Part shown: in pieces, positions 18,044 through 28,229 of the stretch
How positions within the stretch are numbered: position 1 is the stretch's first letter
How the letters are laid out: each line of letters starts with the position of its first letter
Source of the DNA: Planctomycetota bacterium
GTDB taxonomy: Bacteria > Planctomycetota > UBA8108 > UBA1146
Length of the DNA stretch: 64,000 bases
Assembly (NCBI GenBank): GCA_018694835.1
Contig: JABHOG010000004.1
Coordinates: 1 to 64,000 of the forward strand
Direction of reading: 5' to 3'
Notes under the pieces: model-generated
Databases searched by the model: none
What the model saw: only the letters and a program-made list of their open reading frames with translations
Told to the model about the DNA's origin: nothing
Translations under genes and position numbers: made by a program

Positions 18044-21000
18044 ATGTCTCGTTTGTTCTTAGCACTTTTCTTGGTGCTCATTTTTCCCCAACTTTCAAGC
18101 GCTCAGGAGACCGGACAGAAGTGGTCCTATCCCTACGGAGAAGGAAGGGCTTCCCTGGTTCAGGTGGAGGGGATCATCGCCGTCAAGATGATCGACGGGC
18201 TCGAAGATGAACTGGCTTCTCTGCGGGCCGAACTGCGATCGATCCGAGGTGTCGGCAAGGTGAGTGAGAAGAACCTGCAGGAATACCCGGGTCTGTGGTA
18301 TCTCCCTCTCGAGAAGCGTGTCGATGCGAGAATGCAGCAACAGATTCTCGCACAACTAGCGAGCGCCACTGTTGTGGAGTTTGCCGGCCCGGTTCTGGGC
18401 TACCAGGAAGCGGTCATGATTCCGCGTCCGGAAGTCATCGTGACCTTCGATGGCTCCGCCGATGATGAAGAGATTCGAAATGTGATCCGCCAGTCTGGAT
18501 TGCGATTTCTCAAGGAGTTTCCGGCCATCGACCCGACCTACATGCTCGGCTTCGAGGGGCCCACATCGATCGGTTTTGAAATCGCAGATGCCTTGACGGA
18601 ACTGGAAGAAGTCTGGGTGGCAGAGCCCAATTTCATCCACGATTTGCCAGAGATGGCGACTCCCAACGATCCACTCTTTCCAGATCAGTGGGACATGCAG
18701 AATACCGGACAAACCGGCGGCACCATCGGAGCGGACATGAAAGCCGCAGCAGCATGGGACATCTCGACCGGTTCATCGAGCATAGTGGTGGCAGTCATCG
18801 ACGAAGGGGTCGATGTGAATCATGCCGACCTGCAAGCCAACATGGTGGCTGGCTACGATGCGGTCACCGCTGATCCCACACCGGGAGGGATCCCCGGAAA
18901 TGCCAATTCCACCGACGGCCATGGAACCTGCTGCGCAGGGATCATTGCAGCGGTGGGGAACAACGGGATCGGCGTAGCGGGTGTCACATGGAACAGCAAG
19001 ATCATGCCGGTGCGTATCGGATTCGGAAATTACTGGACTCAAACCGATTGGCTCGTCGATGGACTGACCTGGCCGGTCGATCATGGAGCGGACGTGCTCT
19101 CCAACAGCTGGGGAGGAGGATCGGCCAGTTCCGCCATCCAGAATGCGATCGCCTACGGAAACACCAACGGAAGAGGCGGACTGGGGTGCCCGGTTTTCTT
19201 CGCTTCCGGTAATGACAACTCAGCGGTTTCCTATCCTGCTCTCTATCCGGAGTCTATTGCCGTGGGTGCTTCCAGCCCCTGCGATGAACGCAAGAGTCCA
19301 TCGTCGTGCGATGGAGAAACCTGGTGGGGGAGCAACTACGGATCGTCTCTCGACTTTGTTGCGCCGGGTCCGTTGACGACAACAGTCGACATCTCCGGCA
19401 GCGGTGGTTACTCCTCGACCGACTACACCTCCAGTTTCAACGGAACATCTTCGGCCACACCTCACGCTGCGGGTGCCGGAGCACTGTTGCTGGCGGTGGC
19501 TCCGGGCTTGACCCACGATCAGGTTCGAACTTACATGCGACAGACCGCCGACGACCAGGTCGGGCCGCCCTCCGAAGATACGGCGGGTTTTGATAACTAC
19601 ATGGGATACGGACGGATCAACTGCGAGACTTTGCTGCTGACGGTGGCGAGTTCGGTGGCGGCACCGACCAATCTCAGTTGCAGCAGCTCGGGTGCTGACG
19701 CCCTCCTCTCCTGGACCAATGGCGAGAGTTATTCACAGGTGCAGGTGAGCCGGGGGGGAAGCGTGATCGCCACTCTGTCCGGTTCTGCCACCTCTTACAC
19801 CGATTCCTCTGCGGGTGTCGGGAATGTCTCCTACGGTGTTCGTGGACTGGTCGGATCGGACCAGAGTCCTCAGGCCAGTTGCTCCATTTTCCTCACGGGA
19901 GGTGCCACTGATCTGGTCTGGGCGCCATCTGCTGCGGGTGGAGCGGTGGCGGGAGGCAGCGCCATCTCGGCGGCACTCACCGCCAATGGGCGTTCGCCGC
20001 TGGTGGTCACCACCCTCGATGCGGTCGCCAGCCTCGATGCTTTCGAGACGGTCTGGGTCAACCTGGGGATTTACCCCTCGGGGCATGTGCTCTCCGCTGC
20101 AGAAGGCACCACTCTCGATACCTACCTGACCAACGGTGTCGGGGGGTCCTTCCTTTACATGGAGGGAGGAGATACCTGGGCCTATGACTCGGCGACCTCG
20201 GTTCATTCTCGCTTTGGAATCAGCGGTCTGTCGGATGGAACCGGTGACCTCTCCACCGTCAACGGAGCCGCGGGTACCGGCTGTAGCCTTGCAGGTAGCA
20301 GCTGGAGTTACACCGGTGAGAACAGTTGGATCGACCACCTTGGAACCACCGGAAGTGCAGTGGTTACCCTGACCAATCCGACCGCTGCTTATGATGTCGG
20401 GGTCTTCAATGATGCGGGCGCCTATCGCACCTTTGGAACATCCTTTGAGATCGGTGGGCTGGTCGATGGCGCATCGACTCGGGCAGATCTGGTCGGCGCG
20501 ATCCTCAATTGCTTCACCGGGTCACCCCCGCCGCCTCCTCCAGCACCGGTGGCAGACTTCGTTGCATCGCCGACCAGTGGTGAAGCGCCGGTCGCGGTCT
20601 CCTTCAGCAATTCATCGACCGGAAATATCACCGGGTACTCGTGGAACTTCGGCGATGGTGGTAGTTCGACGGCGCAAAATCCGTCTCACACCTACACCAG
20701 TGCCGGCACCTACTCCGTGACCTTGACGGCGACTGGACCGGGGGGCTCTGACACGGCGAGCTGTTCTTCATGCATCGTCGTCACCGATCCTCCACCGCCA
20801 CCTCCAGTGGCTGGCTTCACCCCCGATTCAGCGGGTGGAGAAACGCCGATCGCGGTGTCCTTCAGCAATTCGTCGACCGGCGACATCACCGGTTACTCGT
20901 GGAACTTTGGCGATGGTGGCAGTTCGACGGCGGTGAATCCGTCCCACACCTACACCAGTGCAGGAACCTACACCGTGATCTTGACGGCGACCGGCCCGGG

Positions 21001-22648
21001 TGGCTCTGACACGGCGACTTGTACTTCATGCATCGTCGTCACCGACCCACCACCGCCACCACCAGTGGCTGGTTTCACGCCCGGTTCCGCCGGTGGTGAA
21101 GCCCCGGTGACCGTCTCCTTCAGTAATTCATCGACCGGCGACATCAGCGGATACGCATGGGACTTCGGTGATGGAGGCAACTCGACTGCACAGAATCCAT
21201 CTCACACCTACACCACTGCCGGCACGTACAGCGTGACGTTGACGGTGACTGGCCCGGGTGGCTCTGACACGGCCAGTTGTGGCTCTTGCATCGTGGTGAC
21301 CGATCCACCGCCACCGCCCCCAACCGCTCCGGTGGCTGGTTTCACCGCCGATTCATCCGGTGGCGAGGCTCCGGTGACCGTCTCCTTCAGCAATTCTTCG
21401 ACCGGAGATATCACCGGGTACTCGTGGAACTTCGGCGATGGCGGCAGTTCGACGGCACAAAACCCGTCTCACACCTACAACAGTGCCGGCACCTACTCCG
21501 TGAGCTTGACGGCGACCGGTCCGGGGGGCTCCGACACGGCGGTTTGCAGCTCGTGCATCGTAGTGACCGATCCACCGCCACCGCCTCCACCAACGCCGGT
21601 GGCGGGTTTCATCCCGAATTCATCCGGTGGCGAGGCTCCGGTGACCGTCTCCTTCAGCAACTCGTCGATCGGCGACATCACCGGGTACTCGTGGAACTTC
21701 GGCGATGGCGGCAGTTCGACGGCACAGAACCCGTCCCACACCTACAGCAGTGCCGGTACCTACACCGTGACGTTGACGGCGACCGGCCCGGGAGGTTCTG
21801 ATACGGCAACTTGTGGATCATGTATCGTCGTGACCGATCCGCCGCCGCCACCGCCACCGCCTCCATCCACCTCCCTCTACTACATCTCGTTCCTGTCGAC
21901 CACCACGGTCCCTGGGCTGGGAAATGTCCGGGATGAAGATATCGTGACCTACGATCCGGCGACCGATTCCTGGGACTGGTATCTGGACGGCAGCGATGTG
22001 GGGATCGGTGGTACCGACATCAATGCTCTCAGTGTTCTTGCCGATGGCAGTGTGCTGGTTTCCTTCAACTCCGGTTCATTTTCATTGCCGGGTCTCACTG
22101 GTGGACCCTCCGGAACCACGGTGGAAGACAGCGATCTGGTGCTGTTCACGCCGACCACCACCGGCTCCAGCAGTGCGGGCTCCTGGTCCTTCTATCTCGA
22201 TGGATCGGACTGTGCGCTCACGACCAACGGCGAAGATATCGATGGGGTTTGTTATCTGGATGATGGCACCTTGCTGATATCGACGCTGGGAACGGCTCGT
22301 GGCGGTGGGCCGACCAACCGCGATGAAGATGTGATGTTATTCACCCCCACATCCGTCGGCTCTGCCAGCGGCGGATCCTGGACCACCTTCTTCGATGGAA
22401 GCGATGTCGGATTCTCCAACAGCGGTGGTGAAGATCTCAATGCCATCAGTCTCGATTTCGATGGGTCCGTGCTCTTCTCGACCCAGGGCACATACTCCGC
22501 CTCGGGATCATCCGGTGCCGACGAGGATGTTTCGCGCTTCACCGGTAGTTTTGGCAGTTCTACATCGGGAATCGCAGAACTGATTTTCGACATGAGTGCC
22601 CTCGGCATCTCAACCAGCGCAGATATCGACGGAATTTCGATCCGCTGA
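18044..22648 (+). CDS. Secreted subtilisin-like S8 serine protease with five C-terminal PKD domains
   Basis: VVAVIDEGVDVNHADL, DGHGTCCAGI, FNGTSSATPHAAGAGAL catalytic motifs; five PKD units SFSNSSTGxITGYSWNFGDGGSSTAxNPSHTY; AGGAGG upstream of ATG. Confidence 0.95.
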   Translation: MSRLFLALFLVLIFPQLSSAQETGQKWSYPYGEGRASLVQVEGIIAVKMIDGLEDELASLRAELRSIRGVGKVSEKNLQEYPGLWYLPLEKRVDARMQQQILAQLASATVVEFAGPVLGYQEAVMIPRPEVIVTFDGSADDEEIRNVIRQSGLRFLKEFPAIDPTYMLGFEGPTSIGFEIADALTELEEVWVAEPNFIHDLPEMATPNDPLFPDQWDMQNTGQTGGTIGADMKAAAAWDISTGSSSIVVAVIDEGVDVNHADLQANMVAGYDAVTADPTPGGIPGNANSTDGHGTCCAGIIAAVGNNGIGVAGVTWNSKIMPVRIGFGNYWTQTDWLVDGLTWPVDHGADVLSNSWGGGSASSAIQNAIAYGNTNGRGGLGCPVFFASGNDNSAVSYPALYPESIAVGASSPCDERKSPSSCDGETWWGSNYGSSLDFVAPGPLTTTVDISGSGGYSSTDYTSSFNGTSSATPHAAGAGALLLAVAPGLTHDQVRTYMRQTADDQVGPPSEDTAGFDNYMGYGRINCETLLLTVASSVAAPTNLSCSSSGADALLSWTNGESYSQVQVSRGGSVIATLSGSATSYTDSSAGVGNVSYGVRGLVGSDQSPQASCSIFLTGGATDLVWAPSAAGGAVAGGSAISAALTANGRSPLVVTTLDAVASLDAFETVWVNLGIYPSGHVLSAAEGTTLDTYLTNGVGGSFLYMEGGDTWAYDSATSVHSRFGISGLSDGTGDLSTVNGAAGTGCSLAGSSWSYTGENSWIDHLGTTGSAVVTLTNPTAAYDVGVFNDAGAYRTFGTSFEIGGLVDGASTRADLVGAILNCFTGSPPPPPPAPVADFVASPTSGEAPVAVSFSNSSTGNITGYSWNFGDGGSSTAQNPSHTYTSAGTYSVTLTATGPGGSDTASCSSCIVVTDPPPPPPVAGFTPDSAGGETPIAVSFSNSSTGDITGYSWNFGDGGSSTAVNPSHTYTSAGTYTVILTATGPGGSDTATCTSCIVVTDPPPPPPVAGFTPGSAGGEAPVTVSFSNSSTGDISGYAWDFGDGGNSTAQNPSHTYTTAGTYSVTLTVTGPGGSDTASCGSCIVVTDPPPPPPTAPVAGFTADSSGGEAPVTVSFSNSSTGDITGYSWNFGDGGSSTAQNPSHTYNSAGTYSVSLTATGPGGSDTAVCSSCIVVTDPPPPPPPTPVAGFIPNSSGGEAPVTVSFSNSSIGDITGYSWNFGDGGSSTAQNPSHTYSSAGTYTVTLTATGPGGSDTATCGSCIVVTDPPPPPPPPPSTSLYYISFLSTTTVPGLGNVRDEDIVTYDPATDSWDWYLDGSDVGIGGTDINALSVLADGSVLVSFNSGSFSLPGLTGGPSGTTVEDSDLVLFTPTTTGSSSAGSWSFYLDGSDCALTTNGEDIDGVCYLDDGTLLISTLGTARGGGPTNRDEDVMLFTPTSVGSASGGSWTTFFDGSDVGFSNSGGEDLNAISLDFDGSVLFSTQGTYSASGSSGADEDVSRFTGSFGSSTSGIAELIFDMSALGISTSADIDGISIR
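20540..21862 (+). repeat. Five near-identical tandem PKD-domain coding repeats (~260-270 bp each) with polyproline linkers
   Basis: Unit ends all read (T/A)(A/S/V)C(S/T/G)SCIVVTDPPPPPP; highly similar at DNA level. Confidence 0.93.
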
Positions 22649-22674: not shown

Positions 22675-22709
22675 GCGGCCCCGCTGTGGACACAGCGGGG
22701 CCGCTTTTT
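22675..22709 (+). terminator. Rho-independent terminator
   Basis: GCGGCCCCGCTG-TGGACA-CAGCGGGGCCGC followed by TTTTT, shortly after the S8 protease stop. Confidence 0.92.
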
Positions 22710-22786
22710 CATCATTGGGGGTTCTGTTTTTTGCTTAAACTGGTGTCGTTTTCATCGCGCGGGGATAGCCTCAGGGGGTGTGCTGG

Positions 22787-23566
22787 ATGAGGAAATTGGC
22801 AGATAGGATGGGTCCGATGAAATCCGCTTCAAGTGAAGGTCAACTTTCCGATGATGGCGATGCTGATCTACTACTGAAGTGGTTCGAGAATCACGGTGAA
22901 GATCGAACTGAACTTGCGGGCGAGATCCTCATGTCTGCCGGAGAAACCCCGCGCTGGATGGCCAGGATCGACAGCGGAATCGCCGCTGTTCTCGATGGCG
23001 ACGGAGCCGAATCGCATACGCTCACCGTCGGTGACCTCTTCGGAGAACTGGGGCTGGTGGGGAAGCGAGTTCGTACGGCAACAGTCCAGGCAGTTTGTCA
23101 GGTCTCCTTGAAGGTGCTCTCCTATCCGACGATCGATCGCCTTCGTGGTGAGAGCCTGGAGCAGCGCAGTTCATTTGACCAAACTCTCTCGGAGTTGATC
23201 GCATCTCGGGTACCCGGTCCACTCGGGCCCGATGGTGGTTGGATCGCTCTGGTCGCACACGATCAGAAAAAGGACCAGCTGGAGAAGTTGGTCTGTCAAT
23301 ACCAGCAGACTCTCTCGAGTTACAAGATCGTCACCACCAGGACCACCGGTTCGAGGCTGTCGTCGCAGTGTCAGTTGCCGGTGCGGAAGTTGGTCTGTTC
23401 CGGACCTCTCGGGGGAGACCTGGAGATCGGTGCGATGGCCGCTCGTGGTCCACTGGAAGCGGTGATCTTTCTGCGCGACGGGCTCTTCAGTCATGCCCAT
23501 GGATCGGACATCGATGCTCTGGTCCGGGCTTGTGAGATCGCTGAAGTCCCCTGTGCGACCAACTGA
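22787..23566 (+). CDS. Cyclic-nucleotide-binding domain fused to methylglyoxal-synthase-like domain
   Basis: N-terminal FGELGLVGKRVRTATVQA (cNMP phosphate-binding cassette pattern). C-terminal WIALVAHDQKKDQL...TRTTGSRLS...CSGPLGGDLEIGAMAARGPLEAVIFLRD...HAHGSDIDALVRACEIAEVPCATN matches MgsA-type motifs. Confidence 0.8.
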   Translation: MRKLADRMGPMKSASSEGQLSDDGDADLLLKWFENHGEDRTELAGEILMSAGETPRWMARIDSGIAAVLDGDGAESHTLTVGDLFGELGLVGKRVRTATVQAVCQVSLKVLSYPTIDRLRGESLEQRSSFDQTLSELIASRVPGPLGPDGGWIALVAHDQKKDQLEKLVCQYQQTLSSYKIVTTRTTGSRLSSQCQLPVRKLVCSGPLGGDLEIGAMAARGPLEAVIFLRDGLFSHAHGSDIDALVRACEIAEVPCATN

Positions 23567-23716
23567 GCTACCGCCCAGATGGTCCTCCAGTCGCTGCCAA
23601 ACGGCAACTCTGAGGGATCCTCGCCTTGTTGAAGTTACCGGTTCCAGATACCTTGGTGAAGGTTGCGGCTCCGGGTTCGGAGTCACCATGAGCCACTATC
23701 CTGGAAGAGGAGCCTG

Positions 23717-25477
23717 ATGAAGACGGGAATCGAGGTCAAGGATCCGATCACGACCGGAATTCTCGATCGCCTGATGGACCAGCCTGCTCCGTTCCTCGAG
23801 GTACTCCATGCGATCCAGGATCACCACGGATATCTGTCAGAACCCGCACTACGCCTGGTCGCCGAGCGATTCAAGATCCCCATCAGCGAGCTCTACGGCA
23901 CCGTGACCTTCTACCACTTCTTCCAGCTGGAGCCGAAACCACTGCCCGATATCCGCATCTGCGAGAACTCGGCTTGCTGTCTTCACGATCTGGATGCCAT
24001 CTCCAAGGAGGTGGTCGATGCCGATCTGGGAGTCGCTCATTCGGGACAGATTGAGAAGATCTCCTGTCCGGGACGATGTGATATGCCGGTTCCAATCCTG
24101 ATCGGGGAGAAGTTTTTCCATCATGCCCGGGCCGGTGCCATCGACAACATGACTGCAGCGACGATGCCTCTTCCGCCGGAAACAGGACTGGAAGAGTGCA
24201 TCTTCAGAGACATCCGGGATGGAATCGGCTCCCTCGAAGGCGCGCGAGCTCACGGAGCCTGGCAGAGCCCCAAACTGGCGGCCTCCGATCCTCAAGAGGT
24301 GCTTTCGCAGTTGAAGGAGAGTGGCCTGACCGGCAGAGGCGGAGCAGGGTTTCCCACCGGAATCAAGTGGGAGGCGGTTCGTAACGAGAGCCGTGGACCC
24401 AAGTACATCGTATGCAATGCAGATGAGAGTGAGGTGGGTTGCTTCAAGGACCGCCTCCTGATGGCGCACAGTCCCCATGCCATGCTCGAGGGAATGGCCT
24501 GCGCAGGTCTGGTGACCGGTGCCGAGATCGGCATCGTCTACCTCCGTTGGGAATACCCGGAGATCCTCGAATCGCTGCAGGTCGCTATCGATGAAGCGAC
24601 CGAGGCGGGCTTACTCGGAGAAGATGCCTGTGGAACCGGCAGGCCCTTTCGGATTGTCATCCGACGGGGAGCCGGAGCCTACATCTGTGGTGAAGAGACC
24701 TCGCTGTTGAACTCGCTGGAGGGGAAGCATCCGTTCCCCAGGGAAAAACCACCTTTTCCCACCACTCATGGACTGTTCGATTTACCGACGGTGGTCAATA
24801 ACGTCGAGACCTTCTGCGCAGTCCCGGCGATTCTTGAAAAGGGTGGAGCGTGGTTCAACGGCCTCGGGCTGGGGGATCATGCCGGAACCCGTGTCTTCAG
24901 CGTTTCAGGAGACATTTCCCGCCCCGGAAATTACGAGGTTCCTATCGGCACCTCACTGCGACAACTGCTGGAAACTCATGCTGGGGGTACACCCGATGGA
25001 AAAACGATCCAGGGTGTGACGATGGCGGGAATCAGTGGTGGATTCGTTGGAGCCGTAGATCTTGATGTGGCCCTCGATCCAGCATCGCTCACCGATCTGG
25101 GAGCGATGCTCGGAGCGGGCGGAATCATCGTGCACGATGAGACACGATGCATGATCCAGGCCGCTCGCGAGAGTATGCACTTCCTCGCACAGGAATCTTG
25201 CGGGAAGTGTTTTCCCTGTCGGATCGGAACCGTACGAGTCACCGAGTTGCTCGACGAGTTGATCGCGCACTCCTCCGGGAGTTCGGAGATTCGGAGCCAT
25301 CCACTCGAAGAACTGGCGGATCTGGAAGATGTTCTGGGAGAAACAAGCGCCTGCGGACTGGGGCTGGCTGCCCCCTTCATCACCAGAACGATGAAGAAGT
25401 ACTGGCCGGATGTCGTGCAATCCTACATCGATGGACAGCGAGCCACTAAACCGGCAAAAGGAGATTCAATTGAGTGA
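23717..25477 (+). CDS. NuoE-NuoF fusion, NAD-binding/flavoprotein subunit of NAD-dependent formate dehydrogenase
   Basis: NuoE part: ELYGTVTFYHFFQLEPKP, CENSACC, CPGRCD. NuoF part: GLTGRGGAGFPTGIKW, GAGAYICGEETSLLNSLEG, ESCGKCFPCRIGT. AGAGGAG upstream of ATG. Confidence 0.92.
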   Translation: MKTGIEVKDPITTGILDRLMDQPAPFLEVLHAIQDHHGYLSEPALRLVAERFKIPISELYGTVTFYHFFQLEPKPLPDIRICENSACCLHDLDAISKEVVDADLGVAHSGQIEKISCPGRCDMPVPILIGEKFFHHARAGAIDNMTAATMPLPPETGLEECIFRDIRDGIGSLEGARAHGAWQSPKLAASDPQEVLSQLKESGLTGRGGAGFPTGIKWEAVRNESRGPKYIVCNADESEVGCFKDRLLMAHSPHAMLEGMACAGLVTGAEIGIVYLRWEYPEILESLQVAIDEATEAGLLGEDACGTGRPFRIVIRRGAGAYICGEETSLLNSLEGKHPFPREKPPFPTTHGLFDLPTVVNNVETFCAVPAILEKGGAWFNGLGLGDHAGTRVFSVSGDISRPGNYEVPIGTSLRQLLETHAGGTPDGKTIQGVTMAGISGGFVGAVDLDVALDPASLTDLGAMLGAGGIIVHDETRCMIQAARESMHFLAQESCGKCFPCRIGTVRVTELLDELIAHSSGSSEIRSHPLEELADLEDVLGETSACGLGLAAPFITRTMKKYWPDVVQSYIDGQRATKPAKGDSIE

Positions 25478-28229
25478 GTTGATGATGAATCTCGATGGCC
25501 AAGAGGTCTCGTTCCAGAGGGATGAGACAGTACTCGAGGTGGCAAAGCGTCATGGAACATTTGTTCCGACCCTTTGCTGGGATGAGCGGCTCGATCCATT
25601 CGGATCGTGCAGACTCTGTGTAGTGGAGGTGGAAGGTCGGCGGATGCCCGCATCTTCCTGCACCCTCAAGGCGGCAGAGGGAATGGTGGTTCGCACCGGC
25701 AGTGAAAAACTGCGAAAGATGCAGAGCACCCTGGTAGAGATGGTCCTTTCAGAAAACCCTGACGATGAGTGTCCCCGGTGCAGGGATCTTGGAAGTTGTG
25801 AAGTCCACGACCTCGCTTCCGAGTTCAAGGTCGGTCGAGATCGCTTTCTTGGAGCGACCAGCAATGCCTCCAAAGACGACTCCAATCCCTTCCTGCTTCG
25901 TGATTACGACCGATGCATATCTTGCTATCGCTGTGTTCGAATCTGCGATGAGGTGGAAGCAGACCATGCCATCACCATGACAGGTCGTGGCTGGAACAAG
26001 GGCATCGCCACCGCGTTTGATGGCCTCCTGATGGGTAGCGAATGTACCTTGTGTGGCCAGTGTATCTACACCTGCCCAACGGGAGCTCTCGCCGACAAGA
26101 AGATGGTCGGTCAGGGAGCAGTCCCTGGCGAGATCGAGGTCACTCGAAGTGTCTGTCCATACTGTGGTACCGGTTGTTCCATCAACCTCCATTCAAGAGA
26201 TGGAAAGATGATCGGAGTTACGCCGGTCCTCGACGGCCCGGTTAACGAGGGCGCTCTGTGTGTGAAGGGTCAGTTCGGGTTTGATTTCGTCAACTCCGAA
26301 GATCGGCTGACGATGCCGCTGATTCGAAAAGAGGGCGAGTTGACTCCCGTCTCCTGGGACGAAGCCCTCGACTACACCTCCGCACGTTTCAAGAGTATTC
26401 GCGCGGACCATGGCCCAAAGGCGTTCTACGCCATCGCCAGTGGCAGAGCTCCTGGCGAAGGGGCCTACATGTTACAGAAGTTCACTCGAGCAGTGATGAA
26501 CTCGAATCAGGTCGATAACTGTTCGCGTGGCTGACACAGTCCAACGGTCGCCGGTCTGGTGGCCTCGATTGGACGCGGAGCAATGTCGAACTCGATCCCC
26601 GAGATCGAGGATTGCCCGATGATGCTGTGCGTGGGAACCAACATGACCGAATGCCATCCGATCATCGCGGTACGAGTGAAGAAGGCGGTTCGTAAGGGCG
26701 CAAAGCTATATGTGGTCGACCCACGGAAGATTCCCCTGACCGAGTACGCTACCGGTCATCTTCCTCTGCAGTTGGGTTCCGATGTTGCGCTCTTCAACGC
26801 GATGGCCAACGTGATCATCCAGGAAGGGCTCGCAGACCTGGACTACATCGAGAATCGCACGGAAGGCTTTGAGCAGTTGAAGACGCATCTCGAGTCTTTC
26901 ACGCTCGAATACGCCGAGGGCGTGACCGGTGTTCCGGCAGAGTTGATTCGTGAATGCGCCATCGCATATGGATCAGCAGAGCGCGCTGGAATCTATTACA
27001 CCCTTGGAATCACCGAACACATCTGCGGAGTTGCCAATGTCCAGAGCCTCTGCAATCTGGCACTGATCACCGGCAACCTGGGGAAAACTAGTGCAGGGAT
27101 CAACCCGTTGCGTGGCCAGAACAACATCCAGGGTGCCGGAGATTGTGGCGCCTTGCCCAACAACTACCCGGGATTTCAGCCGGTCGAAGATCCGGCCAGT
27201 CAGGCCAAGTTCGAAAAGGCCTATGGCGTTCCGATGGACCCGGTCAAGGGGATCACCAAGATCGCAGCGCTCGATCATGCCGTCGATGGTCGAGTCAAAG
27301 CGATGTGGATCTGTGGTGAGAACACACTGGTCACCGATCCGGATGTCAAGCACACGACCAGAGCCCTCGAGTCGCTGGATTTCCTGGTGGTTCAGGACAT
27401 GTTTCTCACCGACACGGCGAAGAAAGCAGATGTGGTCTTTCCGGCAGCGGCATTCACCGAGGTCGATGGTTTCTTCACCAACTCCGATCGAAGAGTGCAA
27501 CGCCTACGGCAGGCATCCGTTGCGCCGGGAGAAGCAAAGCCGGACTGGTGGATCATCGCCGAAGTGGCCAAGAGGATGGATACCGAAGTCGATTTTGAAT
27601 ATGCCAGCAGTGAAGAGGTGTTTGACGAACTGGCTTCCCTGTCTCCCATCTATGAGGGACTCAACTACGATCGGATTGAAAGTGGAGATCTGATATGGCC
27701 AGTCCCTCACCTCGAGCACCCGGGAACTCCTGTACTGCACGAGGATGAGTTCCTCAATGGTAAGGGCAAGTTGCAGTTGCTGGAGTACAAGGCGCCCTCT
27801 GAGAATCCCGATGAAGAGTATCCATATTACCTGACCACGGGACGTCGATTGCCGACCTATCACAGCAACACCATGACAGGTAGGTCGGAAGGATTCAGGA
27901 TCCTGGTACCCAATGAATGGCTCGAAGTTCATCCAGCGGATGCGGAGAAACTAGAACTCGAAGATGGCGACTGGGCAAAGGTTCGCTCGCGGCGGGGTGA
28001 CGTGACGACTCGCGTGGCCATCACCAAGACATCTCCGCGCGGGACCATGTTCATGAGTTTCGCCTTCCCTGAGGATACGATGACCAACGACATCACCAAT
28101 CCAGATGTGGACCCCATCACGGAAACTCCCGAGTTCAAGGTGGCTGCGGTAGAGGTGACTCGTGTAGATGCTCCGGTAGGATTTGGCGCAGAGCCTGCAT
28201 TGAGAGCTAGCCCCGGACGGGAGCACTAG
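25470..28229 (+). CDS. Formate dehydrogenase catalytic (molybdopterin) subunit with in-frame TGA = selenocysteine at 26532-26534 and N-terminal Fe-S domains
   Basis: ORFs 25410..26534 and 26559..28229 are in the same frame. Junction reads NSNQVDNCSRG-U-HSPTVAGLVASIGRGAMSNSIPEIED, matching FdhF-type ARVUHGPSVAGL...GAMSN. TTG start at 25470 preceded by AAAGGAG. Confidence 0.95.
26532..26572 (+). promoter_or_regulatory. Bacterial SECIS element immediately downstream of UGA
   Basis: UGA CACAGU CCAA C GGUCGCC GGUCU GGUGGCC UCGA UUGG: 7-bp apical stem (with GU pairs), GGUCU loop starting 21 nt after the U of UGA, plus CCAA/UUGG lower stem. Confidence 0.9.

Follow-up and report, generated by a model that had tools for sequence, protein, structure and literature searches.

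Substrate and phosphate are known regulators of methylglyoxal synthase (MGS). The gene described here encodes an MGS domain preceded by a cyclic nucleotide-binding domain (CNBD), and both halves have well-described relatives. The short form of MgsA (EC 4.2.3.3) found in Thermus (PDB entry 1wo8, 126 aa) and Dehalococcoidia has the same fold and the same catalytic and phosphate-site residues, and intact orthologues of the fusion likewise carry a C-terminal tail of about 20 residues past the ATN motif; the fusion differs in having a CNBD in front, and the copy analyzed here breaks off at a position matching residue 109 of the 126 in Thermus. The cassette of the fusion contains Gly-Glu and Arg-Thr-Ala in register with those of PKA-type domains, but, unlike the CRP/PKA-type CNBDs (PF00027), the protein has neither a DNA-binding nor a kinase partner domain, and in one genus the arginine is lost.

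Two other proteins offer a parallel in architecture. The mycobacterial acetyltransferase Pat (NF058543) likewise consists of an N-terminal CNBD joined to an enzyme (the CNBD match is weak, 2.3e-5), but its catalytic domain belongs to the GNAT family, whereas that of the present fusion is MGS. In Pat, cAMP activates the enzyme via the fused N-terminal CNBD (PMC5861322), which provides a precedent for the mechanism proposed below. A protein from Nostoc (L032, 4345-6366, 674 aa) likewise combines a signal-recognition domain with an MGS-fold domain, but the former is FHA rather than CNBD, the long acidic linker spans about 450 residues, and the MGS site is degenerate (HE in place of HD, and SGGYQ at the site of the catalytic Asp); this protein is possibly an MGS-fold sensor. 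Literature searches, in which subscription journals were little covered, found no paper that pairs methylglyoxal synthase with a cyclic nucleotide-binding domain, cyclic nucleotides (cNMP) or FHA.

The window, i.e., the whole stretch of 64,000 nucleotides that was analyzed, comes from a planctomycete genome (GCA_018694835.1, contig JABHOG010000004.1) and contains the fusion gene with the following features:

22773-22778, forward strand: likely ribosome-binding site AGGGGG for the ATG at 22787, read from the sequence and present also in both orthologues
22787-23563, forward strand: CNBD-MGS fusion ORF in a shortened form, 259 aa, from ATG 22787 to the stop codon TGA 23564-23566
22916-23143, forward strand: cNMP-binding domain PF00027 (3.9e-10), with PDB profile matches to PKA regulatory subunits and HCN channels
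23039-23086, forward strand: phosphate-binding cassette FGELGLVGKRVRTATV, from the sequence and the alignment with orthologues
23243-23563, forward strand: methylglyoxal synthase domain, whole as far as PCATN (NF003559, 6.9e-34; predicted fold of an orthologue with TM 0.93 against 1wo8)

The spacing between AGGGGG and the start codon is eight bases. The two orthologues, L011 from genome G004 (93% identical) and L012 from genome G002 (84-87% identical), belong to the same genus as the window genome (hereinafter g1). The PF00027 profile matches residues 44-119 with 40 bits (gathering score 27.5), and among proteins of solved structure, those closest to the N-terminal half are for the most part PKA regulatory subunits, cGMP-dependent kinases and nucleotide-gated channels. 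In the cassette FGELGLVGKRVRTATV, the Glu that contacts ribose and the Arg that contacts phosphate are both present, and L011 and L012 keep them too. The C-terminal half (residues 153-259) matches the NCBIfam methylglyoxal synthase family NF003559 with 116.7 bits (equivalog cut-off 84) and PF02142 with 30.2 bits (cut-off 24.1). The score for TIGR00160 is below the cut-off (100.6 vs 146.9 bits), as it is, slightly, for one tested copy from a second genus, g5 (144.1 bits). The best matches of this half among solved structures are without exception methylglyoxal synthases (1wo8, 8u2v, 2xw6 and E. coli 1b93), the last of which was aligned independently over 155-262 by a phmmer search against PDB.

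The sequence-only reading had proposed exactly these two domains, together with retention of the equivalents of MgsA His19/Asp20, Asp71, His98 and Asp101, and each of these proposals is borne out. In the alignment, the window protein keeps the equivalents of His19, Asp20, Lys23, Thr45, Thr47, Thr48, Ser65, Gly66, Asp71, His98 and Asp101, and the phosphate-site stretch Thr45-Gly49 is retained; these equivalences rest on the MgsA row of the alignment, which we take to be the E. coli sequence. All the residues to which a catalytic or phosphate-binding role is assigned in PMC7843640 are present in the window copy. A profile search of the genome identifies the fusion as its sole MGS; the same genome encodes three class III cyclase domains. 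As judged from sequence comparison, the two domains were correctly assigned, and their fusion is an architecture that the relatives conserve under selection.

The gene is under purifying selection between same-genus copies: dN/dS is 0.18-0.33 for the whole gene and 0.14-0.28 for each domain, the values for the short linker and tail being unstable. Searches with the fusion profile identify CNBD-MGS proteins in 8 of the 17 genomes of the family, namely 3 of the 5 genomes of the window genus and 5 of the 7 of g5. Two genome draws, 395 planctomycetes and 398 genomes from the class of G377 (about 750 distinct genomes altogether), put this distribution in perspective: the fusion is absent from about 740 planctomycete genomes outside the family, where MGS stands alone. 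Every MGS outside the family in either draw starts its match at profile position 100 or later, i.e., within the linker or the MGS portion, in open frames of 73-340 residues, so that an occurrence elsewhere in the phylum is ruled out within these draws. Among plasmid records, none reaches a coverage of 80% of the fusion query, and a scan of the genome collection with exact 8-residue patterns, which reaches close relatives only, finds no further CNBD fusions. Among the solitary enzymes, the 340-aa frame L055 (G374) has an N-terminal half that resembles a degenerate MGS copy, followed by a conventional MGS half, which suggests an internal duplication with subsequent decay of one half.

The g5 fusions are 26-30% identical to L011 and share with the g1 proteins the invariant linker residues L134, L137 and R141. 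In the tree, the g1 MGS domains are placed near those of Dehalococcoidia (94/85), with g5 apart; holding g1 and g5 together gives a p-AU of 0.467, so that a single origin of the fusion is unrejected. All five g5 fusions have Ala in place of the cassette Arg (ILGEISFVAGGLATASV and similar), the PF00027 match still being above the cut-off in the two copies tested, and Thr/Leu or Thr/Val replace Ser65/Pro67. Because of these changes, it cannot be taken for granted that the whole group binds cNMP or has full MGS activity. The g5 fusion gene adjoins tig-clpP-clpX, with formate dehydrogenase on other contigs. In three g5 loci (L034 5968-7160, L035 8298-10039 and L036 3-1114), it is arranged tail-to-tail, with a 16-base overlap, with a gene of the VOC/glyoxalase superfamily (PF13669, 2.9e-10); the best NCBIfam match of the latter is methylmalonyl-CoA epimerase, below the cut-off.

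In the window, the fusion gene is flanked as follows:

22675-22710, forward strand: terminator-like hairpin and T run of the upstream subtilase/PKD gene (14-nt perfect inverted repeat, terminator scan)
23720-25474, forward strand: NuoE/NuoF-like fused NADH-binding subunit of formate dehydrogenase (domain matches; found in all 17 family genomes)
25410-28229, forward strand: FdhA, split at UGA 26532-26534 by mechanical ORF calling, with Fdh-alpha matches on both sides

The fusion gene begins 3' of the strong hairpin (22675-22704). The upstream gene, 18044-22648, encodes a secreted subtilase that contains several PKD repeats of near-identical sequence and is present upstream in all same-genus genomes; in G002, two additional genes separate it from the fusion (L012 3564-5155). 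The protein encoded at 23720-25474 unites a NuoE-like thioredoxin [2Fe-2S] domain and a NuoF-like subunit. It has full-length matches in 5 of 5 genomes of the window genus and matches in 17 of 17 family genomes (16 near full length; in G005 only the NuoF part, with 42% identity). Thus, the fusion was correctly described as lying directly before a formate dehydrogenase operon, which starts with this gene and continues with FdhA. As a clue to function, the neighborhood fails: the adjacency occurs in three genomes of one genus and is not conserved among the relatives, since the g5 fusion lies elsewhere, and in two same-genus genomes, G001 (L090) and G003 (L091), the subtilase and formate dehydrogenase flanks meet without the fusion gene. 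The g5 location and these empty sites, along with an operon that is present in 17 of 17 genomes, argue also against a general functional coupling to formate dehydrogenase. In G001, the sites matching window positions 22709 and 23609 are only about 40 bases apart, and the stretch before formate dehydrogenase, TCTGAAGAACCCTCGCCTTGTTGA, reads SEEPSPC-stop and resembles the final eight codons of the fusion gene; this hints at an empty site produced by deletion, but the resemblance may also reflect intergenic sequence of ancestral origin. The fusion gene is an accessory element of the locus, and the pattern of presence, absence and truncation within a single genus suggests that its function is dispensable.

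The end of the window ORF involves two further features:

23564-23566, forward strand: in-frame TGA, with CGA (Arg) at the same place in the orthologues L011 and L012 in the DNA alignment
23567-23632, forward strand: remainder of the gene past the stop, ATAQMVLQSLPNGNSEGSSPC and then TGA, which encodes the last MGS helix (frame reading, alignment)

The ORF does end immediately after ATN, as had been observed, but that reading overlooked that the same frame stays open for 21 codons beyond the TGA, reading ATAQMVLQSLPNGNSEGSSPC up to the next stop. This tail agrees with those of L011 (RATALMVLQSLPNGDSEGSSPC) and L012 (RATAQMVLQSLSNGNSEGSLPC), in which the frames are open and encode 281 aa. The stop results from a single CGA/TGA difference within DNA that is otherwise near-identical among the three copies (97% mean column identity), and both the A1 fusion profile and NF003559 run across the TGA in the window genome. 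Hence the missing MgsA tail, which had been taken for a property of the protein, is caused by a TGA private to the window genome.

The structural role of the lost segment can be gauged from AlphaFold2 models. In intact L011, the MGS domain is predicted with pLDDT 93-96 over the core and superimposes on 1wo8 with TM 0.93, so that the MGS fold is recovered by structure prediction, the check that had been named for it; CPS1 is also among the structure matches. The final helix of the MGS fold, H260-269 in the L011 model, is absent from the window ORF. The MGS domain of the truncated copy reaches pLDDT 82-89, and this lower value agrees with, rather than proves, the view that the final helix belongs to the MGS fold. 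The CNBD half of the models is poor (pLDDT below 50), since no more than three fused sequences were usable.

The window copy is shortened either by a nonsense change or by a consensus error. The latter explanation, which we regard as possible but rather doubtful, attributes the TGA to sequencing or assembly and has the organism producing all 281 aa; it is compatible with a cNMP-gated MGS. Only one base is concerned, in a draft assembly of 149 contigs, and the tail is without visible decay, given that its 21 codons are near-identical to those of the orthologues. However, C-to-T in a CGA codon is an ordinary mutation, and errors of such kind appear to be infrequent here because, in a comparison with 60 kb of G002, the fusion gene is the only well-conserved window gene with a late internal stop, the remaining stops being, in our reading, over-extended 5' ends or spurious ORFs. 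Read-through as selenocysteine is worth asking about because the neighboring FdhA has a UGA with a SECIS element about 3 kb downstream, at 26532, and the genome encodes tRNA-Sec (67.5 bits; G000, C79, 63949-64042). In FdhA, the UGA context is NCSRG-U-HSPTVAGL and SECIS_3 matches at 26529-26587 (E 9.1e-9, 47.3 bits, under the 63-bit gathering score), so that, judging from these features, FdhA is very likely a selenoprotein with UGA 26532-26534 as the selenocysteine codon; gene callers would make two ORFs of 25410-28229. For the fusion, the probability of read-through is practically negligible: the same sensitive search that scored the FdhA UGA matched no SECIS just 3' of TGA 23564, the relatives have Arg rather than Cys at this position, and the DNA 3' of the TGA is near-unchanged from theirs. 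If the base is correct in the consensus, the window copy, which lacks the last helix and the tail (22 codons), is probably impaired.

For the two intact g1 orthologues, we lean, with somewhat better than even confidence, toward a cNMP-gated MGS, where gating, ligand and activity are all predicted. The gene would then be an accessory planctomycete MGS with an N-terminal cyclic nucleotide-binding regulatory domain: a cyclic nucleotide produced by the class III cyclases would most likely bind the CNBD, the bound CNBD would change the activity of the MGS domain in one direction or the other, and this domain would, like other MGS, form methylglyoxal and phosphate from dihydroxyacetone phosphate. 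In the window genome, the CGA-to-TGA change removes the last helix and the tail, and the copy would probably be impaired. Several observations count against a cNMP-gated MGS, namely Gln at the Thr47 position in L012, Gly at the Pro92 position in all g1 copies, and the lack of any glyoxalase I above the cut-off in the genus. It is unlikely, but consistent with the replacement of Arg by Ala in 5 of 5 g5 fusions despite PF00027 scores above the cut-off in both copies tested, that the CNBD has ceased to sense cNMP and serves as an oligomerization or protein-contact module, the enzyme being constitutive or otherwise gated; the three g1 copies, however, keep the cassette Glu and Arg, and the window genome has its three cyclase domains. 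It appears still less probable that the MGS domain lacks catalytic activity and senses phosphorylated metabolites, in the manner of the regulatory MGS-like domain in carbamoyl phosphate synthetase. Such regulatory domains with the MGS fold exist, as the CPS1 matches indicate, and the cyanobacterial FHA protein L032 ends in a domain with HE for HD and the catalytic Asp gone, but the catalytic Asp and His are retained in the g1 copies along with the phosphate-site residues, and these copies score above the NF003559 equivalog cut-off.

With the cNMP-gated MGS as the preferred reading, the system can tentatively, and with less assurance than the gating itself, be viewed as a second-messenger switch, in which a cyclic nucleotide on the fused CNBD would turn a glycolytic overflow enzyme on or off, and which was later lost in some lineages by deletion or nonsense mutation. 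The literature searched contains no description of such control for any MGS. Known domains here form an unusual combination of narrow distribution, of which the window copy is a truncated example; this copy illustrates that the lack of a tail in one genome can be a single-base event. In the genomes with an intact gene, the fused CNBD would give methylglyoxal production a direct signalling input.
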